Positions 21,527 to 33,665 of a DNA stretch of 64,000 bases are shown in pieces. Each line of letters begins with the position of its first letter. The stretch's first letter is position 1. The DNA is taken from assembly GCF_008932435.1 (NCBI RefSeq), contig NZ_WBWE01000005.1, positions 124,001 through 188,000 of the forward strand, given 5' to 3'. Under the pieces are notes generated by a model, which was given only the letters and a program-made list of their open reading frames with translations, was not told the DNA's origin and made no database searches. The position numbers were made by a program, and so were the translations under genes. The stretch is from Brucella pseudintermedia (lineage in GTDB: Bacteria > Pseudomonadota > Alphaproteobacteria > Rhizobiales > Rhizobiaceae).

Positions 21527-22366
21527 TCAACACTTATTTTGGGCCTCCACACGTTTGGTGTCCCCAAAAGCCCGGCAAAGCTGGATGCCGACCATATCGC
21601 GATCCTCCAACCATGGCGTTGCCGAGCGGTGCGAAAATGTCAATTTGCGGCCTACGAGCCGATCAATGAGTGCTGATTCCAGCTTCGCGAGTGCCGCAAC
21701 CCAAATCTGATAGTCAATCCGTCCCAAGATATCGGCAGTCGGGTCAGGCGTCAGAACAAACTTGCGATAGGCGCCAGGATAGGGCCGATGGGCGCGGCGA
21801 TTAAATCCGTCAACCTCAACCGAATATTCACGCCCAAAGGCATCGACGGCTGGCCTACGGACGAACCATGACGGGGTTCCCTCGCGGCGCGCGAACACAA
21901 CGCATTCCGGTTCTGGCGCGGTATAATCGGGCGCTCGCCCCAACACGGCGCTGGAGATGACAAGCGATGCGATGCCAGCGCTGCGCGAACGGGCAGGACG
22001 CAGCATAAGACGTTCGGTCGCCCGCGCCACCGCATCTGCCGTCAGCCCGTCGAAATCCTGCCAGTCGGCAACCGGGTTCCAGCCATCCGGAAAAGAAACA
22101 TCAAAGCGGGCAAGATCGGCAACCGCCTTACCCACCTCAAGTGCATCCTCGTGCGGCGCACCCTGTTCGACCCACATACCGGGTTCTGGACGGTCGCGGT
22201 CTACAAGCGTCATGAGTTCTGCATAGCCCAGAACTTTTCCCCAAGACGAAGCCTCCAGTTGCCGCCATGCAGAGTGAATGCTATCCAGACCATCAACGCC
22301 ACCGCCTTTTGGCAGTTCGTGGACGAAAGCCCAGACGAGAAGTTCATCAATCGTTACAGTTTTCAT
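21527..22366 (-). CDS. Phage protein of unknown function
   Basis: The 279-residue product starts MKTVTIDELLVWAFVHELPKG. No known domain is recognised. It has a central PTPGMWVEQGAPHEDALEVG-like stretch and a C-terminal helical SHRSATPWLEDRDMVGIQLC. Such proteins often follow phage primase genes and may aid replication, which is inference. Upstream lies the 10-bp repeat block, so the promoter or origin for this gene may be there. Confidence 0.6.
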   Translation of the reverse strand: MKTVTIDELLVWAFVHELPKGGGVDGLDSIHSAWRQLEASSWGKVLGYAELMTLVDRDRPEPGMWVEQGAPHEDALEVGKAVADLARFDVSFPDGWNPVADWQDFDGLTADAVARATERLMLRPARSRSAGIASLVISSAVLGRAPDYTAPEPECVVFARREGTPSWFVRRPAVDAFGREYSVEVDGFNRRAHRPYPGAYRKFVLTPDPTADILGRIDYQIWVAALAKLESALIDRLVGRKLTFSHRSATPWLEDRDMVGIQLCRAFGDTKRVEAQNKC

Positions 22367-22370
22367 ATTT

Positions 22371-22624
22371 TACACCACTTGCGATAGTTTGCACCAGTTT
22401 GCACCACTTAGAAAACTGGAAATCGAATAACAAAATCAAATATTTGCACCAGTTTGCACCAGTTTTGGCTTGTGCATATAATAAGCTTTTTCCCCCATCC
22501 CCCTTTTTCCCTTATGTATACACAAGGAAAACTGGTGCAAACTGGTGCAAGTTGTTGAAATCATTTCATTTATCCCGTTGTTCCAACTGGTGCAGAGTGG
22601 TGCAAACTGGTGCAAACTACTGCA
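22371..22624. repeat. 10-bp tandem repeat block (iteron-like), two opposed groups
   Basis: Units of TTTGCACCAG appear in tandem with a 10-bp period: two at 22387-22406 (plus a degenerate ACACCACTT copy just before), two at 22443-22462, then in reverse orientation (AACTGGTGCA) two at 22531-22550 and four at 22585-22624 (the second and fourth with changes). Between the opposed groups is an AT-rich and poly-pyrimidine stretch (about 22463-22530). The block lies downstream of the D5-type helicase-primase and upstream of the 279-residue gene. It resembles the iteron array of a replication origin or the binding site of a regulator. Confidence 0.8.
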
Positions 22625-22717
22625 CAGCATAAGTTCAATCATATCAAAGGGTTGCCGGTTTTCAGGGGCGAAAGCCGTGCCAAAGGCGGGGTTGCGGGGA
22701 CGGAGAGCGAGCATCAT
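22436..22717 (-). CDS. Possible small gene coupled to the primase and running through the repeats
   Basis: A 93-residue frame starts with ATG 22717, overlapping the primase stop by ATGA. The first 33 codons look coding (MMLALRPRNPAFGTAF), and the rest is the translation of the 10-bp repeats. The repeats may encode a short, degenerate tail or the frame may be accidental. No ribosome site was seen. Confidence 0.3.
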   Translation of the reverse strand: MMLALRPRNPAFGTAFAPENRQPFDMIELMLCSSLHQFAPLCTSWNNGINEMISTTCTSLHQFSLCIHKGKRGMGEKAYYMHKPKLVQTGANI

Positions 22718-24519
22718 CGCATGTGCGCCTCGTAATCATCAGAGCCGGACGTGTGAGCGGGTTTCGGGACCTCGATCAGGCGCAAGCCATGGTATTTGAC
22801 CGCGCGCCCATCCTCGCGCCGGTACTTCTTTTTCATGATCAGCCCGAATCTCGTCAGCGATATAGGCTTGCCGCCCTGATCGACGGTGAAGTCAACATAA
22901 GCCTGATAGAAATCCTTGGCGGTCACCTCGCCACGCTCATCAGCTTCTATACATCGGGCGCAGAAAGCGGACGTGGGGTCCATTTCGTCGCGGTATTCCT
23001 GCGTTTTCGCCTCGACCGATGCTGGAATGACGAGCCCTTCACGCAGGAAGATCAGCACACCCTCTATGAGCCAGTTCAGTATTCCCGGATATTCCGGCTG
23101 GAATTCCGAAACCACCTCCTCAAATTCGCGCTGTTCCTCCTTTTTCAGCGTCACAGGCCAATGCACCACGACCATGCGTCGCCAGATGCCGTTGTCTGTG
23201 CCGGTGATGCGTGGATAGCCGTTGCCGGACATGTGCCCGGTGAAGATGGGCTTGAAGTCGAAATAGCCTTGAAACAGGTCGCGGACGGTGAAGTCTTCAC
23301 CGCCAGTCAAATCCTTGACCAGATTTTCGCGCAAATCCTCACCTTCGGGCAATTCCTTGACGCGAAGGAAGCGTCGGCCATAGAGCCGCGCCATATCAGG
23401 CGAGGCGGCACCGCCGGAATTGCCTTCACCTATGAAGGATTCGGACGGCAGCGTAACAGAAACATCGCCAAGCAGGCGGCAAAGCGTTTCCATGTAGACG
23501 GACTTGCCATTGGCGCCGAAGCCGTAATGGAAGAACAATTTCTGTACGGTGAGGCCCACCAAACCCAAACCGGACGCTACCTGCACCATACGGCGCACAT
23601 CGTCGCTCGGCAGCATGCGTTTGAGAAAAGCATCCCATTTCGGGCATTTGGCGTTCTTTTGATAAGCGACGGGGATGATCTGGGTTATGAGGTCGCCACG
23701 GCGGTGCCCTTTGATCGCCTTGACGCTGGCGATTTTGCGCTCGATGGTTTCGGGTATATCCTCGCGGTTGTCGTCGGGATCGTCAAAGGCCGGGTTTCGC
23801 ACGTGCTCGACCTCACGCGAGAAAACCAGCGTATGGTCCAGAAGCGCCACCTTGAGCGGGTCGGCGTTGAAATCATCTGGCGAGCGCATCACATGCGGCG
23901 CCAGACAGGTCAGCATCGCTTCCAACCGCGCCCGGTTTTTTGACGTGACCGCATGATCCATGCGCCTTTTTTTGCGCTTGGCGAGGTTCGCTTTTGCATT
24001 CAGCGCCGCGTCGGCCAACTTCTTTTCCGGTCGGGATCGCTCATCCTCCGGTTTAGCCAAGGCTTCCTTTCCAGCCTTAACCGCCTCCTCTTCGGCGGGA
24101 GTGTATTGCAGGAACTCGGTTTCCATGGCGATGCGTCCGCCCAACTGCTGCGCAATGGCGAGTGAGCGCGGGTCGCCCGTGTCGATATCCCAATGCGTGC
24201 CATCCCATATCGCATAGGTCGCCTTGCGGGCCTTACTTTGGGCGAGCACGAGCATATCCTCGCCAAAATGGCGCTGCAGGCGTTCCGCGTTATCCGTGTC
24301 GGAATGGTCTAGCGCAGCACAGGCCCTCACCACTTCGCGGTCAACGCTCCGATCACCACGCGCGGTAGCAGCCGGTTCACCGTCATCCGGGGAGTGCGCA
24401 TCAGGCAGACCATCGGTGGCGGGGTTGCGGGGATCAATTTCAGCAGCTTCCGCCTGCCGTGAAGCTTCAGCCATGATTGCGCGCACTGCGGCCGGTATGT
24501 CTTGGGTATTCTTTGTCAC
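22714..24519 (-). CDS. D5-type helicase-primase
   Basis: The 601-residue protein has a D5/SF3 helicase C-terminal domain: Walker A GFGANGKS at 333-340, followed by Walker B and sensor regions (EDFTVRDLFQGYFDFKPIF, then TNGNGYPRITGTDNGIWRRM). These P4-type replication proteins unwind and prime the origin in many phages and plasmids. It overlaps the preceding Toprim gene by four bases, so the pair is a split primase-helicase system. The iteron-like block follows immediately. The family assignment is confident; action at the block is inference. Confidence 0.92.
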   Translation of the reverse strand: MTKNTQDIPAAVRAIMAEASRQAEAAEIDPRNPATDGLPDAHSPDDGEPAATARGDRSVDREVVRACAALDHSDTDNAERLQRHFGEDMLVLAQSKARKATYAIWDGTHWDIDTGDPRSLAIAQQLGGRIAMETEFLQYTPAEEEAVKAGKEALAKPEDERSRPEKKLADAALNAKANLAKRKKRRMDHAVTSKNRARLEAMLTCLAPHVMRSPDDFNADPLKVALLDHTLVFSREVEHVRNPAFDDPDDNREDIPETIERKIASVKAIKGHRRGDLITQIIPVAYQKNAKCPKWDAFLKRMLPSDDVRRMVQVASGLGLVGLTVQKLFFHYGFGANGKSVYMETLCRLLGDVSVTLPSESFIGEGNSGGAASPDMARLYGRRFLRVKELPEGEDLRENLVKDLTGGEDFTVRDLFQGYFDFKPIFTGHMSGNGYPRITGTDNGIWRRMVVVHWPVTLKKEEQREFEEVVSEFQPEYPGILNWLIEGVLIFLREGLVIPASVEAKTQEYRDEMDPTSAFCARCIEADERGEVTAKDFYQAYVDFTVDQGGKPISLTRFGLIMKKKYRREDGRAVKYHGLRLIEVPKPAHTSGSDDYEAHMR

Positions 24520-25730
24520 GCGGCACCTGCCATCATTTCAGAAAAATCAGTGCCAGCCGGAGGCCACGCAATTGCTACCTTCCGATCTGGTCTCAAGATA
24601 CGTGCACGCGCTCGCGCCATGGCGGCGGAAGTCATGACGCGCTCGGAATCGCCGTCGCCCAAAAGCACGATCTCGCGCACATGGTCGCCGATCCAGAAAG
24701 CGTCATCCGGGCCTTGGTCGGCGCGGGGAACCGGCCCCTGCACCATGACGGTGCGCAAACGCCCCTTGGCGTCTTCCTTCTTTAGGGTCGGGTGCGCGAA
24801 GCGTGATGCGGGGTCGGCGGGGCCGGAAAGATTGCCGAGGTCGCCGGCGGCGAAGTAAAACGTATCTGGGCGAAGGCTCTCAGCGCGTGCAACGGCCAGC
24901 GTGTTTTCTATGCCTTCGCCGCCTACCCAACGTTCCATACTTGGATGACCGGCAAGTGGGATAAGCCCGCCTTTTTTGCTGCCGCGCATCTTTTTCGTTG
25001 GCAACACTTCGCCGGTCGCGGTGTCAATGATTTCCGGTCGGCATTTCGGACGGCGGGCGAGATCAATCCAGGTGATGTGGCAGCCGATGACGCCGAGGTC
25101 AGGGCCAACGATCGGCGCGATCATGGCAGGTCCTTCATGCAGGCTCGCGTCACCATGCCAATAGGTTACAGATGTATCGACACGCAGCCATTCGGATTCC
25201 GGGGCACAGGCGCCCCGCGCCATTAGATAAAATCGGCCATGTGGTGCCGAGGATGAATAGAGCGTGGAAGCACGACGATATATACCCCGCGCCTTGTTTC
25301 GCTCGATCTCGCGATAGTCAGCCTGGCTTTTCGCGTGTTCTTCCTGCAATTCGGCATTGCGCTGGCGCTGTTCTTCCAGTCGCTGCAAGCGTGCAGTCCT
25401 GTCGGCGTCCGATTCCCGCTCGCCACCTTCCGGGATGGACTTGTCAAGGAGGATCGAGCAGGCTTCCAGCAAACCTTCGCGGCTGCGAACATTGAGGCCA
25501 CGCACATGCGCCGCCATGCCTATCGCATCATTCCCGCCTATACCGCCTTGACGGCAGTTCCATTTATTCTTCTGGGTGTTGAAGGCGAACGTATCCTTGC
25601 CGCCGCAGGCGGGGCAGGGTTGCGGGTGTTCGCTTCCGCGCGGATTGCATTTCAGGTTGAGGCGCTGCGCAGCATCCGCGATCGTGATGGCACGCGCATC
25701 CTCGACAAAGAGTTTCAGCGCGGCGCTCAT
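24516..25730 (-). CDS. Toprim primase with zinc-binding domain
   Basis: The 404-residue protein begins MSAALKLFVEDARAITIADAA. Near residues 39-59 is a CHC2-like zinc-binding site (C39, C42, C59 in PCPACGGKDTF and WNCRQGGIGG). The second half is Toprim-like: EGIENTLAVARAES and DLGNLSG, with a conserved acidic GDGDSERVMTSA region. It would synthesise primers, with the D5 helicase gene coupled downstream. It ends at ATGA with that gene. Homologues are commonly found beside D5 helicases in prophages. Confidence 0.88.
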   Translation of the reverse strand: MSAALKLFVEDARAITIADAAQRLNLKCNPRGSEHPQPCPACGGKDTFAFNTQKNKWNCRQGGIGGNDAIGMAAHVRGLNVRSREGLLEACSILLDKSIPEGGERESDADRTARLQRLEEQRQRNAELQEEHAKSQADYREIERNKARGIYRRASTLYSSSAPHGRFYLMARGACAPESEWLRVDTSVTYWHGDASLHEGPAMIAPIVGPDLGVIGCHITWIDLARRPKCRPEIIDTATGEVLPTKKMRGSKKGGLIPLAGHPSMERWVGGEGIENTLAVARAESLRPDTFYFAAGDLGNLSGPADPASRFAHPTLKKEDAKGRLRTVMVQGPVPRADQGPDDAFWIGDHVREIVLLGDGDSERVMTSAAMARARARILRPDRKVAIAWPPAGTDFSEMMAGAA

Positions 25731-26110: not shown

Positions 26111-26292
26111 TCTGCACCTACATCTTTCCGGCGCGCAAGCGCATTGCGGCTTGTCACCATGGTGTATCCATCGGGGAAACGGACCAGACAGGAGTTCATG
26201 ACCTTGGCGCGTATATCGACAGCGCATGGCTGACCTTTGCGGCCCTGCCGGTTCCATCGGTAAACATAGGGGAATTGGACAGGAGAGGTCAT
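26107..26292 (-). CDS. Small conserved phage protein
   Basis: A 61-residue protein starts MTSPVQFPYVYRWNRQGRKGQPC. It is basic, with a charged C-terminus (NALARRKDVGAE). Proteins of this kind, with an YVYRWNRQGRKGQ opening, are typical between the C5 methyltransferase and the primase of rhizobial prophages. It overlaps the methyltransferase stop at one end and the next gene at the other. The function is unknown. Confidence 0.65.
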   Translation of the reverse strand: MTSPVQFPYVYRWNRQGRKGQPCAVDIRAKVMNSCLVRFPDGYTMVTSRNALARRKDVGAE

Positions 26293-28427
26293 TCTGCTGC
26301 CTCCATCCGTAGTGCCAGATGGCTGCAATTGGCGGCAACGAGTGCGGCGGCAACGGGTGGCGAAACGCTGTTGCCACAACAGGAAACCTGCACCGATTTT
26401 GAGAACAGATCTCCATTGATGCCGCGCTCAATCTCATAATCAGCCGGGAAACCTTGCGCGAGATAAAGCTCGCGCGGCACCAACATGCGCATGCCAATGT
26501 CGACGATGACATAGAGAATGCCGCCCGCTTCTATGGTGACGAACTCGCGCTCATCCCAGAAACCGTAGGCGCGGAGAAATGCGGCCACTTCACGCGCCCG
26601 TTCGGCCTGTGCTGGCGTGAAAGGTGGCACGTCGAGCGTGGCCTCGACATGGCCGTGACGGTCTTTGGTGGTTACGGTCCTGACAGGCTGGTTTTCTTCA
26701 CCGCCATCGCCGGTACCGTAATAGGCTTGAAGATATGGCGCCACGACACTTTGCTGCGATCCGGTTTGCGTGACCGTCGAGACCGGCTCATCGATAGAAC
26801 GACCGGGATTGACGCCGCCCTTGCGGCGGCTGTCATTATTATGCTGCGCCATGTAAGCCGTAATCAGGCGCGACTTGCCTTGGCCATCCGGCATTACCGT
26901 GTGGGATGGCTCATCAATGCGGTGGCCGGTCGACGTCCCGAAATCGCGAGCGACGAAGGCAGTTGCTATACAGGTGTCCGCCTTGGCCGTGGTTGTGTGC
27001 ATTGGTTCGCCAGCACCACGTGGGCGGCTCTGGCCGGCGCGGCCACCGCAACCAACCAACGTAGGCACAATAACGCTGTTCTGATCTTTCGTGCTGGCAG
27101 TGATGGTATGCGCCGGGCTGTCAATCGAACGGGTCGAGCCGCCATGCTGGGCGGCGGTAAGCACCGGCGCGACAACCGTCAGCCCGGCTCCGCCTGCAGT
27201 GATCGTGTGTGTAGGCTCATCGGCACCATTGAAAGGCTTACCCGCATTGCGCATCGTCATCAGATGCGGGGCGACAACACCCAAAGGGGCCGCGCCGCCG
27301 GGCCGCTTGATAAAGCTGTTCGCAGTAACGGTAGACAGCGGCTCGCGGGCATCCTGCCCCGTGGCTCCGGTGTTGAAACGGATAACGGACGGCGCAATTA
27401 GCGCGTGCCGGTTTTCAGTTACGACGGTTGCGAGTGGTCCGTCGATTTCCGAAACTCGTTCCGAGCGCCCCTTATCGTGACTGTAGTACGATGCGAGGTG
27501 CGGCGACACGAGAGCCTTTTCGCCGCGATGCGCGCCGGTGATTGTCTTGAACGGCTCGTCGACTGCCTCGACGCGCCCGCCGTGGGTGAGATTAACAAGG
27601 AATGGGCGCTCGGCATCCAGCACATAGCGCTTCATGCCACGCGCGACACGAGCCATGGTATTATCAGCAAGCGGGCGAACCGACCGAAGCCCATGCTTTT
27701 CCATAATCTGTTCGGACGTGTCGAAAATGGAAGGGCAGGGCAGCGACCAGTCGATAATTTCCGCTGCGGTGCGCCATGGTAGCTTGTGCCCGGATATAAC
27801 GTCGGGATCGGTAGGCGCACCATGTGTCGGTTTCGGCCACACAATGGGCTGACCGTCGAAGCGGATAACGGCGAAGAACCGCTTGCGGATAGTCGGCGCC
27901 CCATAATCGCAAGCGCGCAACTCCCGCCACTCGATCTTGCCGCCAAGCGAGCGAATCTTGCGGCACCATTTTTTGAAGTATTCGCCCTTTCGTTCCGGGT
28001 CGGGCATCAAACCGCGTGCGGTTTCCATCAACGGGCCGTAATCCTGAAACTCCTCGACGTTTTCGAGAATGACAACATCGACTTTGCCGCCGCTTTTCTG
28101 AATGCGCTCGATCCAGCCGGGGATTATCCATGCGAGGTCGCGAATGTTGCGTTCGACAGGCTTGCCGCCCTTTGCCTTGGAAAAATGCTTGCAGTCCGGT
28201 GAAAACCAGCCCAGCCCAACATGCGCACCGCGCAGGTAATCAAGCGGGTCAATCTTGTAGACGTTTTCGGACAGATGCAGTGTTTGCGGATGGTTCGCTT
28301 CGTGCAGCGCCAGCGCGGCCGCATTGTGGTTGATGGCAATATCCGGTGAACGGCCCAAAGCCATTTCAATGCCGGTGGATGCACCTCCACCGCCGGCGAA
28401 GGAATCGACGATCAGGGGCAGGTTCAT
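26289..28427 (-). CDS. DNA cytosine-5 methyltransferase with nine internal repeats
   Basis: The 712-residue protein starts MNLPLIVDSFAGGGGASTG. C5 methyltransferase motifs are clear: motif I DSFAGGGGAS (8-17), catalytic C79 in FSPDCKHFS (motif IV; the usual PPC is SPDC here), ENV at 122-124 (motif VI), RKRFFAVIR near 181-189, and GNSVSPP near 685-691. Between the last two lies a region with nine repeat units, each starting with a xDEPxxTxT-type motif (VDEPFKTIT, ADEPTHTIT, IDEPSHTVM and others). This is where the target recognition domain belongs. Such phage methyltransferases protect phage DNA against host restriction. An earlier start at 28469 is possible. Confidence 0.9.
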   Translation of the reverse strand: MNLPLIVDSFAGGGGASTGIEMALGRSPDIAINHNAAALALHEANHPQTLHLSENVYKIDPLDYLRGAHVGLGWFSPDCKHFSKAKGGKPVERNIRDLAWIIPGWIERIQKSGGKVDVVILENVEEFQDYGPLMETARGLMPDPERKGEYFKKWCRKIRSLGGKIEWRELRACDYGAPTIRKRFFAVIRFDGQPIVWPKPTHGAPTDPDVISGHKLPWRTAAEIIDWSLPCPSIFDTSEQIMEKHGLRSVRPLADNTMARVARGMKRYVLDAERPFLVNLTHGGRVEAVDEPFKTITGAHRGEKALVSPHLASYYSHDKGRSERVSEIDGPLATVVTENRHALIAPSVIRFNTGATGQDAREPLSTVTANSFIKRPGGAAPLGVVAPHLMTMRNAGKPFNGADEPTHTITAGGAGLTVVAPVLTAAQHGGSTRSIDSPAHTITASTKDQNSVIVPTLVGCGGRAGQSRPRGAGEPMHTTTAKADTCIATAFVARDFGTSTGHRIDEPSHTVMPDGQGKSRLITAYMAQHNNDSRRKGGVNPGRSIDEPVSTVTQTGSQQSVVAPYLQAYYGTGDGGEENQPVRTVTTKDRHGHVEATLDVPPFTPAQAERAREVAAFLRAYGFWDEREFVTIEAGGILYVIVDIGMRMLVPRELYLAQGFPADYEIERGINGDLFSKSVQVSCCGNSVSPPVAAALVAANCSHLALRMEAAE
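26670..27563 (-). repeat. Nine-unit protein repeat in the C5 methyltransferase
   Basis: Core motifs lie at residues 289, 328, 360, 402, 435, 472, 504, 545 and 579, about 25-43 residues apart. The shared pattern is [IAV]-[DG]-[EGS]-P-x-x-T-[IVT]-[TVM]. The units are diverged, so this is an old repeat rather than a recent duplication. It occupies the target recognition region. Confidence 0.85.
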
Positions 28428-28669
28428 TGCGCACCCCCGGTTTCTTCTCGGCCACGCATGCCCCAGCACTGGTCTATGCTCCAGGTGCGGCAGATGGTGT
28501 TCAAATAGGAGCGGACCTTATAGACCGACATGCCAGAAGCCTTGGCGATTTCGCTCTGGGTCATTCCCATTTCGCGAAGGAGCGCCAGCCCTTCGATAGT
28601 CATGACTGTCGGCAGGTCAGGCGTGAAACTTTGAGGCGTAATGCTGCCGGGCTGGCCGAATGTGATCAT
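28424..28669 (-). CDS. Helix-turn-helix protein
   Basis: The 81-residue product starts MITFGQPGSITPQSFTPD. The region at residues 23-55 (MTIEGLALLREMGMTQSEIAKASGMSVYKVRSYL) is a good helix-turn-helix. It overlaps the methyltransferase by four bases and probably regulates the early operon. The rest is short and basic. Confidence 0.65.
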   Translation of the reverse strand: MITFGQPGSITPQSFTPDLPTVMTIEGLALLREMGMTQSEIAKASGMSVYKVRSYLNTICRTWSIDQCWGMRGREETGGAQ

Positions 28670-28914
28670 GGATAAACCTCTCGTCTGGTGGCGAGTTCGT
28701 TGCTGTCGAAAAATGAGGGGGAGCGCTCCAGCCATTCGCAGAGCGCGAGAAAGGATTCCGTCGATATGCTCTTGCCGTGGATCGCGCGGCGAACATCGTC
28801 CCTTGGAATATCGCAAAGCCGAGCAACGTCGATCTCCCGCAGATGCGAGCAGATGCGCTTGCGGTCGACATACATGCCGAAAATCGTGAAGTCGGTGGAA
28901 AAAGCGGCGGTCAT
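28666..28914 (-). CDS. Small helix-turn-helix regulator
   Basis: An 82-residue protein starts MTAAFSTDFTIFGMYVDRKR. Residues 15-45 (ICSHLREIDVARLCDIPRDDVRRAIH) fit a helix-turn-helix. It overlaps the downstream gene by four bases. Its start faces the hicA gene, with the repeated palindromes between the two, so both may be controlled from the same site. Confidence 0.6.
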   Translation of the reverse strand: MTAAFSTDFTIFGMYVDRKRICSHLREIDVARLCDIPRDDVRRAIHGKSISTESFLALCEWLERSPSFFDSNELATRREVYP

Positions 28915-28937
28915 CGGCCCGCCCTGTCGATTGTGAA

Positions 28938-28988
28938 ATTCGGACAAAAATATCCGAAAGCTATTGACATTCGGACAAAAATATCCGA
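28938..28988. promoter_or_regulatory. Twin palindromic operators and promoter of hicAB
   Basis: The 20-bp sequence ATTCGGACAAAAATATCCGA occurs twice, at 28938-28957 and 28969-28988, each with TCGGA/TCCGA arms, 31 bp apart. A TTGACA (28964-28969) with a 17-bp spacer and GATATT (28987-28992) overlaps the second copy, so a repressor bound here would cover the promoter of hicA. By analogy with other hicAB loci, HicB is the likely repressor. Confidence 0.7.
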
Positions 28989-29016
28989 TATTGTCTTTGT
29001 CAAAGCGGAGAACCCG

Positions 29017-29214
29017 ATGGACAAGAGAGACCGCTTCATAGCCGAGCTAAGGAATGAAGCAAAAGCGCAAGGGCTGGCCTTTCGGGTTAGCAAGAGCAAA
29101 GGAAAAGGCGGGCACGCAACAGTATGGGTAGGAGATCGCTTCACCACACTGCCGAGCCGGGAAATCGATCCCAAGACCGCCGCGAAGATCAAGAAAGGGT
29201 TGGGGCTCATTTGA
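29017..29214 (+). CDS. hicA: HicA-type mRNA interferase toxin
   Basis: The 65-residue toxin starts MDKRDRFIAELRNEAKAQGL. It has the double-stranded RNA binding fold of HicA, with H33 in SKGKGGHATVWVG as the likely catalytic residue. The toxin cleaves mRNA and is neutralised by HicB. It is upstream of hicB with a 38-bp gap, both on the plus strand, opposite to the surrounding early genes. Its own promoter and operators lie just upstream. Confidence 0.88.
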   Translation: MDKRDRFIAELRNEAKAQGLAFRVSKSKGKGGHATVWVGDRFTTLPSREIDPKTAAKIKKGLGLI

Positions 29215-29252
29215 GCCCCTCCCGCCACACAAAGGAGCAAAGGACTGGACGA

Positions 29253-29681
29253 ATGAGAACATACGCTTACGCAGCCGTGTTCGAGCCTACCGAGCGGGAA
29301 GGCGGCTTCGTTGTTACATTTCCGGATGTGCCGGAAGCTATCACCGAGGGTGATGATATGGCGGATGCCCGCGAACAGGCTGCTGACGCGCTTGGTGTGG
29401 CGCTGCTCACCTATCTGGAGATGGGACGAAGCCTGCCCGAAGCGAAGGCAAAGGGAGAATTGATCTGGCCGGATGCGGAAGTCGCAACCAAGATTGCCGT
29501 GATCGAGACTTTCCGCGCTTCGGGCCTTTCCAGAACTGAACTCGCCCGCAGGCTTGGCAAGGACGAGAAGGAGGCGCGCCGCCTGCTTGATCCGGACACT
29601 GCGACCAAGCTTCCCCTCATGACGGCAGCACTTGCGGCCATGGGGCAGAAGCTGGTCATCGGATTGGAGGCGGCTGAATAG
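29253..29681 (+). CDS. hicB: HicB-type antitoxin
   Basis: The 142-residue antitoxin starts MRTYAYAAVFEPTEREGGFVV, the partially degraded RNase H fold of HicB, and carries a C-terminal helix-turn-helix (SGLSRTELARRLGKDEKEAR) that would bind the operators upstream of hicA. Start ATG 29253 has an AAGGAG region upstream. The pair would stabilise the prophage or act as anti-phage defence; both are inference. Its stop lies 11 bp from the stop of the convergent methyltransferase gene. Confidence 0.9.
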   Translation: MRTYAYAAVFEPTEREGGFVVTFPDVPEAITEGDDMADAREQAADALGVALLTYLEMGRSLPEAKAKGELIWPDAEVATKIAVIETFRASGLSRTELARRLGKDEKEARRLLDPDTATKLPLMTAALAAMGQKLVIGLEAAE

Positions 29682-29692
29682 ACCAATCGTCA

Positions 29693-30919
29693 TCATAACA
29701 CCTCTGCACTGAACAAAGGGCCGTGATCGGTCGTTGCGGATGGCGCGTCAGCGATGACGCGCCATTCTCTTTCTATGCGGCGCCTGGCAATGTCGGCATA
29801 ATCTGGATTGAGTTCTATCAACATGGCGCGGCGGTTATGGCGAGCAGCCACAAGCCCCGTGGTTCCGGCCCCGCCGAATGGATCGAGGACAACGCCGTCT
29901 TTCGGGCATCCGGCAAGAATGCAGCGTTCCGCCAATTCCGGCGGGAATGTCGCAAAATGCGCTTCGGAAAACGGCTTGGTGGCAATCGGCCAGACGGAAA
30001 GAGGCGCAGGCTCGAAATTGCGAAGAAAGCGCCCGTTTGCGCCTTGCTCTTCCTTCGTCATTTGACCCCAACGACCCTTGAAACCATCATGGCATCGATC
30101 GTGACCGCGCTGCTTGTCTTTTCGCACGCGGTTATGAGCGACGGGCGAGTGCGGAGTGTCGCTTCCTGTTGCCCAACCTTGAACCGGGTGAGCTAGTCCC
30201 GTGGCACTAACCTGCCGTACGGCCTCGGCATCATAATAAGCGCCGATGCGTATCCAGCGCGCACCTTCGCGTGACGGGTCGGTGATGAAGGGGCAGCGCT
30301 CTGTCAGATCAGGCGAAAAGGAAATCTCGCCCGTATCGCGCGCACGCCATACGTCCCCATCGTCTGATTTCGTCAACATGAAGATTTTCTCATGCGCGGC
30401 AGAAGGGCGGTATGCACCGGAGGAATCCGGCATGGGATTGGATTTGCCCCAAATGATTTCCGAGCGAACCCACCAGCCTGAATCCTGCAGGGCGATGGCA
30501 AGCCGGTTCGGGATCATCAGCAGGTCTTTGGGCTTTATGCCGCCGCCGATGGTCGAGAAAGGCTTGTCCCGAAACGTGCGATCGTCGGTGCCTTCCGCCT
30601 TGTAATCGGCAGCAGATTTACCGTTCGGCGTGGTGGCGTAGCAGTCGCCATAGTTGATCCAGCACGTGCCAGTGGGCTTCAGGACACGACGCACCTGCTC
30701 GAACACGGCTACCATCGTTTCCAGATGCGAAGCGAGCGTCGGTTCAAGGCCGATTTCCAGCGGCTTCAACGGGTCGCCATCGGCGATATAGGATCGCAAA
30801 CCCCAATAAGGGGGGGAGCTAACGACACAGTCGATTGAATTACCTTCGATCTGTGCAAGACGTTCGAAGACATCGCCGATCAATATTGAAATACGACCAT
30901 CTAAGATATTTATGTTCAT
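29693..30919 (-). CDS. Site-specific DNA methyltransferase (N4-cytosine or N6-adenine)
   Basis: The 408-residue protein starts MNINILDGRISILIGDVFERL. It has a catalytic motif SSPPYWGLRSY, which resembles DPPY/SPPY in beta-class methyltransferases, and a downstream SAM-binding motif DPFGGAGTTG at the C-terminus, so motif order is catalytic before SAM. SPPY leaves open N4-cytosine methylation. The enzyme has no restriction endonuclease partner nearby. It starts with ATGA overlapping the LAGLIDADG gene stop. The methylation probably protects phage DNA. Confidence 0.88.
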   Translation of the reverse strand: MNINILDGRISILIGDVFERLAQIEGNSIDCVVSSPPYWGLRSYIADGDPLKPLEIGLEPTLASHLETMVAVFEQVRRVLKPTGTCWINYGDCYATTPNGKSAADYKAEGTDDRTFRDKPFSTIGGGIKPKDLLMIPNRLAIALQDSGWWVRSEIIWGKSNPMPDSSGAYRPSAAHEKIFMLTKSDDGDVWRARDTGEISFSPDLTERCPFITDPSREGARWIRIGAYYDAEAVRQVSATGLAHPVQGWATGSDTPHSPVAHNRVRKDKQRGHDRCHDGFKGRWGQMTKEEQGANGRFLRNFEPAPLSVWPIATKPFSEAHFATFPPELAERCILAGCPKDGVVLDPFGGAGTTGLVAARHNRRAMLIELNPDYADIARRRIEREWRVIADAPSATTDHGPLFSAEVL

Positions 30920-31398
30920 GACACGCCAACCTCGTTGAGGTGGCGAGCGCGCTGATAGCAACCTTCCATCGCTGCAGAGAGAGTTGCGGAGCGAGGCTTA
31001 GAACCCATATGGCCCCGATTTTTTGCTACCCTTTCGACTTTGCTCCTATCCTTTATTGTCCGGAGATCTAGGCAGTTTTCAGCTTGCGATTTTTGTATGC
31101 GTAGAAATGGAAGAAGTGCACGCAACGCAGATACGGCCTTTTTGTCCGTAACTTGCCAAACGAATAGCGGCTTACCACGCCGCACAGACGCGGAGCAGGT
31201 ATAGAAGGTGCCGCCGAAAGTATGGTGCAATAGATCAATTGCCGACCGCTCAACCTGCTTAACGCAGATACGCTCGCTATAGATAGGCTGGCTGCAATCG
31301 CCAACTATCCGCATGTTGTAGGTATCTCTTTTGATACCGATAGTCCCATCGCTATCAATCACGCCTGCGAGATAAGCCAAGTTCACAGCATCACTCAT
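30916..31398 (-). CDS. LAGLIDADG-type homing endonuclease, single motif
   Basis: The 160-residue protein starts MSDAVNLAYLAGVIDSDGTIG, with the single LAGLIDADG motif LAYLAGVIDSDG near residue 8. Members with one motif act as homodimers and cut long target sites. Its GC content is lower than that of its neighbours, a sign of recent entry. It overlaps the preceding 41-residue gene and the downstream methyltransferase by four bases each, so it has replaced or joined the operon neatly. The target site is not known. Confidence 0.8.
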   Translation of the reverse strand: MSDAVNLAYLAGVIDSDGTIGIKRDTYNMRIVGDCSQPIYSERICVKQVERSAIDLLHHTFGGTFYTCSASVRRGKPLFVWQVTDKKAVSALRALLPFLRIQKSQAENCLDLRTIKDRSKVERVAKNRGHMGSKPRSATLSAAMEGCYQRARHLNEVGVS

Positions 31399-31521: not shown

Positions 31522-32025
31522 TCAGTCATCCCCGATGACGCGCAGCGCAGGGTCGCCGCGGCGTGCATTGGCAATGTGGCCGGAAAGCTCGCGACGCAGG
31601 CCCGAAATATTGCGCTCGGCCTCGCTCGCCACCTTGTCGAGCTGCATGGCTTCGGTGCCTGTGACCTTGCCGTCTGCGAAAACGCGGGCGCCGATGCTCA
31701 TCACCTCGCCAACGCTGGCCACGACTTCGGAGTGGGCCGCGAGCAGATTGCCGGCTGCGCGAACATCCTCATCCGGTTCGGCCAGACGGCGGTTGTTGAG
31801 CGATGCCATCACCGACGTGACGCAAAGCACGCCGCATTCGTTTTCCAGCTTGTAGACCACATTGAGCGGCATCAGGTCGGTTTCGGTCGACAGGTTCCAG
31901 CGTCCGACCTGGCTTTTAGAGAAGCCGGATAGCTCGACGACACGCTCGATACCGCCGCAATATTTGATGAGGTCGCGCTGTGCCGACTTGATCCTTTGGA
32001 ACCATGCGTCTGTCAGTTGCGTCAT
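31522..32025 (-). CDS. CII-like phage regulatory protein (CP76 family)
   Basis: The 167-residue protein starts MTQLTDAWFQRIKSAQRDLI. The region YCGGIERVVELSGFSKSQVGRWNL is a helix-turn-helix characteristic of phage regulatory CII/CP76 proteins. The C-terminal part is helical (SEAERNISGLRRELSGHIANA). It sits after Cro in the early leftward operon, as CII does in P22-like phages. Two palindromes lie upstream (32049-32093). Confidence 0.75.
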   Translation of the reverse strand: MTQLTDAWFQRIKSAQRDLIKYCGGIERVVELSGFSKSQVGRWNLSTETDLMPLNVVYKLENECGVLCVTSVMASLNNRRLAEPDEDVRAAGNLLAAHSEVVASVGEVMSIGARVFADGKVTGTEAMQLDKVASEAERNISGLRRELSGHIANARRGDPALRVIGDD

Positions 32026-33021: not shown

Positions 33022-33038
33022 CTGATAAGATGTGCGCC

Positions 33039-33665
33039 ATGAAGAACAGGATCAGGGAAATCAGGGAAGCTAAGGGACTTTCGCAGGGGGCACTCGGCGA
33101 GAAGTTGGGCGTGCATTGGCAAACGGTTCATCGCGCGGAAAGCTCCAAAAGCGCGTTGTCCGAGCAGAAGCTGCAAGCCTATGCAAAGGCGTTGGGTGTT
33201 TCGACAGCAGAACTCGTGGGCAGTGAGGGCGGTCGAACCGTAACTGTTAAGGGGCAGATTCAAGCTGGGGCTTGGGCGGAAACTTGGGAATGGCCGATCG
33301 AAGATCAGTACGAAGTTCCTGTGCCGGATGACCCGGCGCTGTCGAATTTCTCGCTGCATGCGGCTGAAACCAGGGGGCCGTCGATGAATAAACGCTATCC
33401 GGATGGCACAGTTCTTGTGTTTACCGACGCACTGGAACGCCCGGAAGACCTGATTGCGGGCAAGCGTTATATCGTTGAACGTGAAAGAGCCGATGGGCTG
33501 CGCGAGGCAACTGTCAAAAAGCTCTGGCAAGACGAATACGGGGCAATGTGGCTTTTGCCTGAGTCTGACGATCCAAGATTTCAGGAAGCAATCCCCATCA
33601 ACGGTGAGGATGGTGATATGGTCCGTATCCTCGGTCGCGTCAGATTCTCAGTCACCCGCGAATAA
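33039..33665 (+). CDS. CI-like repressor (XRE helix-turn-helix plus S24 peptidase)
   Basis: The 208-residue protein starts MKNRIREIREAKGLSQGALG; an alternative start is 33030. Residues 5-50 form an XRE helix-turn-helix, and the C-terminal domain is LexA/S24-like (SMNKRYPDGTVLVF with the likely Ser nucleophile in GPSMN and the Lys in GKRYIVE region). RecA-driven self-cleavage would induce the phage. Operators flank the gene on both sides and a terminator follows. The architecture fits the lysogeny repressor. Confidence 0.88.
   Translation: MKNRIREIREAKGLSQGALGEKLGVHWQTVHRAESSKSALSEQKLQAYAKALGVSTAELVGSEGGRTVTVKGQIQAGAWAETWEWPIEDQYEVPVPDDPALSNFSLHAAETRGPSMNKRYPDGTVLVFTDALERPEDLIAGKRYIVERERADGLREATVKKLWQDEYGAMWLLPESDDPRFQEAIPINGEDGDMVRILGRVRFSVTRE

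Follow-up and report, generated by a model that had tools for sequence, protein, structure and literature searches.

A mirrored array of 10-bp repeats behind a D5-type helicase gene as the probable replication origin of a Brucella pseudintermedia prophage

Poxviruses and many phages and satellites have replicative helicases of the D5 family. To our knowledge, the recognition and opening of origins by its self-loading members are poorly known. Here we describe a block of tandem 10-bp repeats (iterons) beside a D5-type helicase gene in a prophage of Brucella pseudintermedia. The block lies in a stretch of 64,000 nucleotides (assembly GCF_008932435.1, contig NZ_WBWE01000005.1, positions 124,001 to 188,000 of the forward strand), which we call the window and in whose coordinates features are given. 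By analogy, the mechanism that we propose would belong to the class of self-loading-helicase origins of the SaPI, SCCmec and P4 kind.

SCCmec offers a close parallel: according to PMC7581432, the isolated C-terminal domain of Cch2 binds direct repeats downstream of its own gene. Cch2 and the window share a D5_N-type helicase; the Cch2 site consists of three iterons (AAGTG), whereas the window holds about twelve 10-bp units, mirrored. Two features of SaPI- and SCCmec-type origins were found in the window, namely a hexameric SF3/D5-type initiator helicase and a helicase gene directly followed by iterons, and the best VIA-align match of the window's helicase was the SaPI5 primase-helicase. Relative to the Rep origins of SaPI5 and SaPIbov1, the window appears to differ in its separate Toprim primase, in its mirrored 6+6 array built of units about 10 bp long, and in the strand-polar paired G-run of its center. 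PMC4234260 describes P4 alpha as a Toprim primase and helicase with a winged helix that binds origin repeats, and places pRN1-type origins downstream of a gene for a primase, SF3 helicase and winged helix. In gene organization, P4 alpha is one multifunctional protein, whereas the window's primase and helicase are separate genes and the P4-type fusion of the two was not found there. In P4 alpha-type replicons, a second cis region also carries iterons. The window's two-unit pattern (at most 2 mismatches) formed no further cluster in a search of the genome that would miss a diverged one. The pRN1-type origin uses a large stem-loop; a consistent hairpin was not found in 90 related centers. In Lactobacillus phage A2, as in the window, the relevant region lies behind the helicase: the annotated rep_origin extends from the 3' end of a primase-helicase gene of the D5 family and encloses a mirrored array. 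A2 differs in its iteron and its longer primase-helicase gene, whose product is 32.5% identical over 55% of the window's helicase. The A2 annotation reportedly goes back to a paper by Moscoso and Suarez in 2000. What appears to be new here is the mirrored layout across very distant phages, the strand-polar center, the variety of iteron sequences (dialects), and a partial recognition code. A search of open-access titles and abstract openings, subscription literature excluded, returned no report of D5 helicases followed by mirrored iteron arrays or of such a dialect code.

The repeats occupy the 347-bp gap (22367–22713) between the stop of the D5-type helicase gene and the start of a phrog_9306 gene (21527–22366, − strand). 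The initial annotation had placed the array correctly and had recognized its exact 10-bp period within blocks; the unit is AACTGGTGCA. It had counted units as two plus two in one orientation and two plus four in the other, an arrangement that unit mapping replaced by twelve units, six per orientation, with four plus two facing two plus four and some diverged. On the helicase side, the outer block (22585–22624, + strand) contains four iterons of the AACTGGTGCA type (22585–22594, 22595–22604, 22605–22614 and 22615–22624), the second and last of which are diverged, the last with core ACT. The unit nearest the helicase starts 90 bp past the helicase stop. The inner pair on this side (22530–22549, + strand) comprises two perfect iterons (22530–22539 and 22540–22549). 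Across the center (22465–22529, no strand), the helicase-distal inner pair (22445–22464, − strand) likewise consists of perfect iterons, oriented the other way (22455–22464 and 22445–22454). An AT-rich stretch (22410–22444), which is a candidate first melting site, separates it from the distal outer block (22371–22409, − strand) of four units (22400–22409, 22390–22399, 22380–22389 and 22371–22380). Unit 22380–22389 (AACTATCGCA) has three mismatches and a different core, one typical of sister lineages; unit 22371–22380 has two mismatches and shares one base with its neighbor.

The repeat score of the gap was 26, whereas 500 dinucleotide shuffles of 22367–22713 averaged 6.7 and reached no more than 10. 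Single 10-mers (at most 2 mismatches) were not enriched over the whole window (65 found versus 59 expected); thus, clustering and phasing are the exceptional signal. The two-unit pattern, at the same tolerance, occurred five times in the 4.39-Mb genome, every time within the array block. AT content was 0.77 in the distal arm (22410–22444), 0.66 in the proximal arm (22550–22584), 0.60 at the center and 0.42 in the window. The + strand of the center is a polypyrimidine tract with two C5 runs at 22492–22503, so that the helicase-sense (−) strand carries the paired G-run GGGGGATGGGGG.

The helicase itself (22714–24519, − strand; 601 aa; Pfam D5_N; phrog_1156) is a D5-type hexameric helicase and the predicted initiator. 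Its C-terminus is predicted to be a winged helix (residues 534–581; 22777–22920, − strand), a candidate domain for binding double-stranded DNA and the putative iteron reader. The mean predicted local distance difference test score (pLDDT) of the AlphaFold model was 81 in the best of five models and 67–73 in the other four; in the best model, the winged helix scored 81–91 per 10-residue block over residues 531–580. In the model a recognition helix (555–565) begins exactly at residue 555, and is followed by strands 567–569 and 575–581 with a wing turn at 570–574. Helicases 96% and 84% identical to it were present in two other genomes of the genus, and some relatives had longer open frames of 875–1080 aa. 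Another relative (G093:C3:245032-246586) is broken by a TGA stop. The initial annotation had the array following both a primase and the helicase. The array does lie directly behind the helicase gene; the primase, a separate Toprim/zinc-ribbon gene (24516–25730, − strand; phrog_510, E 3.5e-66; both the Toprim and the zinc-ribbon Pfam match below cut-off), lies upstream of the helicase.

We concluded that the block is probably the prophage's replication origin, with its mirrored 6+6 array bound by the D5 helicase through the predicted winged helix. An origin, with the helicase-primase or another phage protein as its binder, had already been proposed in the initial annotation, and comparative data from three sides support it: arrays behind related helicases, covariation with the winged helix, and the A2 rep_origin.

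Scans for helicase relatives gave 247 loci; at 165 of these (window included), the sequence behind the gene was distinct and of sufficient length. Loci were merged only on an exact match of the first 350 bp behind the helicase; close relatives remain, and locus counts are not counts of independent events. Weights were applied in the helicase mutual-information analysis and the phrog_9306 analysis only. For an array call, an automatic motif finder required a score of 12 and a margin of 4 over the best of ten mononucleotide shuffles. The initial annotation had staked the origin on the presence of arrays in related phages with the same primases, and an array was called within 420 bp of the helicase gene at 131 of the 165 loci: 104/122 at ≥37% helicase identity, and 27/43 below 37%. 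The 18 misses at ≥37% identity comprised eight displaced mirrored arrays, five weak or weaker ones, and five loci with none. The displaced mirrored arrays (L042, L126, L130, L135, L140, L148, L190 and L213, where L numbers denote loci) were found in search segments starting 150–1650 bp further on, in a scan that took the best of many segments per locus with three shuffles per segment. Weaker displaced arrays occurred at L041 and L199, and weak traces in place at L015, L016 and L119.

We also inspected 14 named phages, picked by hand among 60 matches listed of 952 matching records. In nine, the helicase was followed by a mirrored array (A2, CL2, Listeria PSA, RcapNL, AmM-1, Pthi1, Pan4, Sc-Yong805 and a Methanoculleus virus), with PSA carrying reversed extra units besides. 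Viruses of Lactobacillus and Listeria, as well as cyanobacterial and archaeal ones, had a similar layout. As a BLAST query against the phage collection, the array DNA gave short, chance-level matches only (7 records, E about 4), indicating that the layout is common at a distance and the sequence is not.

Layout and code were analyzed in 97 arrays, namely the 131 less the 27 below 37% identity and less seven of the remaining 104. Those seven were out of register (L139, L204, L206), had partial helicases (L009, L024, L050), or were the window's own copy (L051, its protein identical to that of L001). The central gap measured 55–130 bp in 96 of the 97 registered arrays, the two sides averaged 5.5 and 4.9 units, innermost units started a median of 80 bp apart (quartiles 75 and 87), and neighboring units were mostly 9–12 bp apart. 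Mirror-concordant units numbered 909/1003 (strand shuffles, maximum 670), and concordance reached at least 80% in 83/96 arrays (maximum 16 in shuffles). Mirroring was perfect in 41 arrays, and part of the rest had reversed extra units. In arrays of the AACCC dialect (L040, L048, L058, L136 and others), one reversed extra unit stood inside each arm at mirror-symmetric places; such units were not seen in the window's array.

The polarity of the center was also shared. Runs of four or more on the helicase-sense strand of the centers were of G in 81/96 and of C in 14/96. The pattern GGGG-N1-6-GGGG occurred in 60 of 90 related centers, compared with none for its C version and at most 6 in mononucleotide shuffles; where present, the paired G-run lay about 5 bp from the array center. 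TATA flanked both sides in 24/90 (shuffles, maximum 5), and AT content over all loci was 0.62–0.63 in the helicase-distal arm versus 0.47 at the center. A central hairpin was rejected as a general feature: the mean z of DNA folding was −0.44 in the 90 centers versus −0.21 in control windows, with z below −2 in 13/90 centers and 6/89 controls.

The consensus iterons of the 97 arrays took 37 distinct forms over positions 3–10, of which 20 occurred once; examples, position 2 included, are ACTGGTGCA, ACTATCGCA, ACTGTCAGA, ACCCTCGCA and AATGGTGCA. The GGTGC dialect was common to the window's group (96–100% identity) and a group at 55–62%. When all helicase columns were compared with all iteron positions, the top mutual-information pair was L555 with position 4 (z 6.8), and 18 of the best 40 pairs lay within residues 534–581. 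Position 4 was C with E555 (25/25) and T with L, V, I, S, W or R at 555 (52/52), and was mixed with N555 (2 C, 8 T) and Q555 (6 C, 2 T). Q556 went with A at position 3 (3/3); with R572, position 8 was G and position 9 was C (51/53 each). Positions 6–7 were GT with A573 (4/4) and TC with I573 (28/28). Among the eight displaced arrays, read by eye, all six with E555 had C at position 4. In these data the iteron sequence tracks residues 555–556 and 569–574 of the predicted winged helix, in what would be a partly readable recognition code.

Three controls were applied to the covariation. For a branch test, a tree was built from helicase residues 61–540, and changes per branch were scored in 1017 columns of the helicase, the primase and the phrog_9306 protein. 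The top six columns for iteron positions 6–10 were all in residues 534–580, and six of the top ten were in the winged helix, which 0 of 2000 random branch sets reached; for any position, five of the top ten were in the winged helix (1/2000). Position 4 changed on 8 branches and position 3 on 5. The tree tests thus support a role for the wing, and back neither the helix contacts nor iteron position 5.

The second control was a prediction test, scored as iteron positions recovered of 8, for which ten columns of the winged helix were selected with the data already known. Between loci below 50% backbone identity, the winged helix recovered 4.90, the nearest backbone 3.64, random partners 3.90 and the best of 60 entropy-matched sets 4.84; below 70% the values were 5.94, 5.56, 4.16 and 5.36, respectively. 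In the 69 loci with all three proteins (below 70% identity), the winged helix recovered 6.03, versus 5.29 for the primase and 5.06 for phrog_9306, these last two figures being the best of 40 random ten-column sets each.

Lastly, we compared close pairs. Loci L125/L129 and L123/L127, about 90–93% identical outside the domain, show a dozen differences inside it as well as different dialects, suggesting that the array and its putative reader travel together. Among 38 matched close pairs, 20 with a dialect change and 18 without, column 555 had changed in 10/20 versus 0/18 (p = 0.0004, uncorrected), the lowest p value among columns 61–600, although under strict correction it would be lost. At least one of six key columns (555, 556, 570, 572, 573 and 574), chosen afterwards, had changed in 15/20 versus 5/18.

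A number of results count against the helicase-bound origin. No array was called at 16/43 distant loci (<37% identity), and the array search was negative at five of the 122 close relatives (L162, L202, L203, L211 and L212). Among the named phages, the Wintermute array was mirrored but weak (11 versus 10 in shuffles), the DshS-R4C array was not mirrored, and the motif finder found no array in RR1-A, TG1 or RcRhea. Concerning the code, 22 of the 40 best mutual-information pairs lay outside the domain (P455, H189, A518 and others). The domain-wide mean in the branch test was modest (reached by 67/2000 null sets for any position and 198/2000 for positions 6–10), and neither positions 3–4 (the null reached the domain difference in 686/1999) nor position 5 (797/2000) was significant. 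Any change among the ten contact columns failed to separate the two groups of close pairs (17/20 versus 14/18), and in unchanged-dialect pairs above 5% divergence a contact column had changed in 13/13. Three of the 20 dialect changes (L156/L121, L116/L055 and L021/L020) occurred with contact columns unchanged, and dialect-changing pairs were the more diverged (mean 0.20 versus 0.12). Because the C-terminal codons adjoin the array, part of the covariation could be recombination hitch-hiking, and because mixed arrays exist, one helicase coexists with two cores. Position 5, the most variable iteron position (23 branch changes in the 97 arrays), covaried with primase G209 and several phrog_9306 columns and not with the winged helix.

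That last result bears on two other explanations. The array could instead serve phrog_9306 and the late genes as an operator to which a phage regulator binds, much as the initial annotation had allowed in suggesting a regulatory block for the next gene. Opposed repeats are frequent in operators, the array sits in the gap upstream of phrog_9306, this neighbor is conserved too (a relative in 77/97 related loci), and some of its columns covary with iteron position 5. About six units per side over 250 bp, in a layout common to very different viruses, is nevertheless unlike an operator, and the annotations of PSA and CL2 place a Holliday junction resolvase gene behind the array. Positions 6–10 covary with the helicase, whereas the link to phrog_9306 is at position 5 only. 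The phrog_9306 protein had no match in the Pfam search, and its model (mean pLDDT 81) had no PDB structural match at E ≤ 0.001. On the strength of the covariation and the structure search, we consider the operator unlikely.

Alternatively, the block could be an origin to which another phage or host protein binds sequence-specifically and recruits the helicase. The failure of position 5 to track the helicase's winged helix would fit such a protein, as would Aurantimonas phage AmM-1 (L250 1373-2563), where an annotated DnaA C-terminal domain protein that could bind the origin is encoded between primase and helicase. Winged-helix columns ranked first for positions 6–10, however, in a combined scan limited to the helicase, the primase and phrog_9306, and the SCCmec relative, according to PMC7581432, binds directly via its own C-terminal domain. 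We judge a recruiting protein to be slightly less likely even than the operator.

A further possibility is that the array encodes a repetitive peptide. The initial annotation had noted a short frame coupled to the primase; the frame in question (22436–22717, − strand, 93 aa) overlaps the helicase stop instead. A start codon overlapping the helicase stop was present in 13/13 loci checked, an overlap needless for a purely noncoding block and thus a further point against a simple origin, and in five of the 13 the frame behind it was 92–102 aa long. Over all 13, however, frame length ran from 33 to 102 aa, the alignment contained single-base gaps, the 10-bp period breaks the reading frame, and the 93-aa frame had no Pfam or PHROG family match. 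The overlapping frame is probably not a conserved gene, and given the variable length and the gaps we regard a coding repeat as very improbable.

Returning to the origin bound by its helicase, the arrays hold a trace of how dialects may change. In 14 placed arrays of other dialects from the window's clade, the innermost helicase-proximal slot (22530–22539 in the window) kept a GGT core in 12, and the innermost distal slot in none. In the window's own array 10/12 units are GGT, with one ATC unit kept at 22380–22389. From these sequence patterns, it is likely that a fixed GGT unit spread over the array, together with a change at wing residue 573.

We propose that the D5 helicase binds the iterons through its predicted C-terminal winged helix, and that two hexamers load face to face across the center. 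Residues 555–556, at the start of the recognition helix, would read positions 3–4 in the center-facing half-site, and wing residues 569–574 would read positions 6–10 in the outer half-site, giving a two-part code. The hexamers would then open the helicase-distal arm, which is AT-rich, and on one strand the strand-polar G-run center would offer the separate Toprim primase a preferred start. After a change in the winged helix, the array may be re-homogenized to a new dialect, possibly from the fixed 'seed' slot; the window's array would then be a seed unit spread to 10/12 units. More broadly, and with somewhat more doubt than belief, we suggest that D5-type phages may share one ancient mirrored origin design with dozens of dialects, a two-part code, homogenization from a seed slot, compatibility groups, and strand choice by the G-run.

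Other genes lie further upstream of the primase. Near the replication genes are a C5 cytosine methylase (26289–28469, − strand; 726 aa, matched over two stretches) and an N4/N6 DNA methylase (29693–30961, − strand). A HicB-like antitoxin (29124–29681, + strand; PF15919) is overlapped by the frame 28777–29214 (+ strand), which by eye resembles its HicA partner and had no match in the Pfam search. A CII-like regulator (31522–32025, − strand; PF06892) and a prophage repressor with helix-turn-helix and S24 peptidase domains (33030–33665, + strand) were also present.

On the broader reading, the dialects would define replication-compatibility groups among prophages, in which phages of different dialects would be blind to each other's origins, and a strand-polar G-run center would decide the strand on which priming begins. 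The natural helicase-origin pairs, about a hundred in number, combine a single layout with dozens of dialects and offer a ready experiment on the code, the subunit number and the loading geometry. For other D5 phages, the layout suggests where an origin may be found: directly behind the helicase gene, as mirrored repeats of 9–12 bp.
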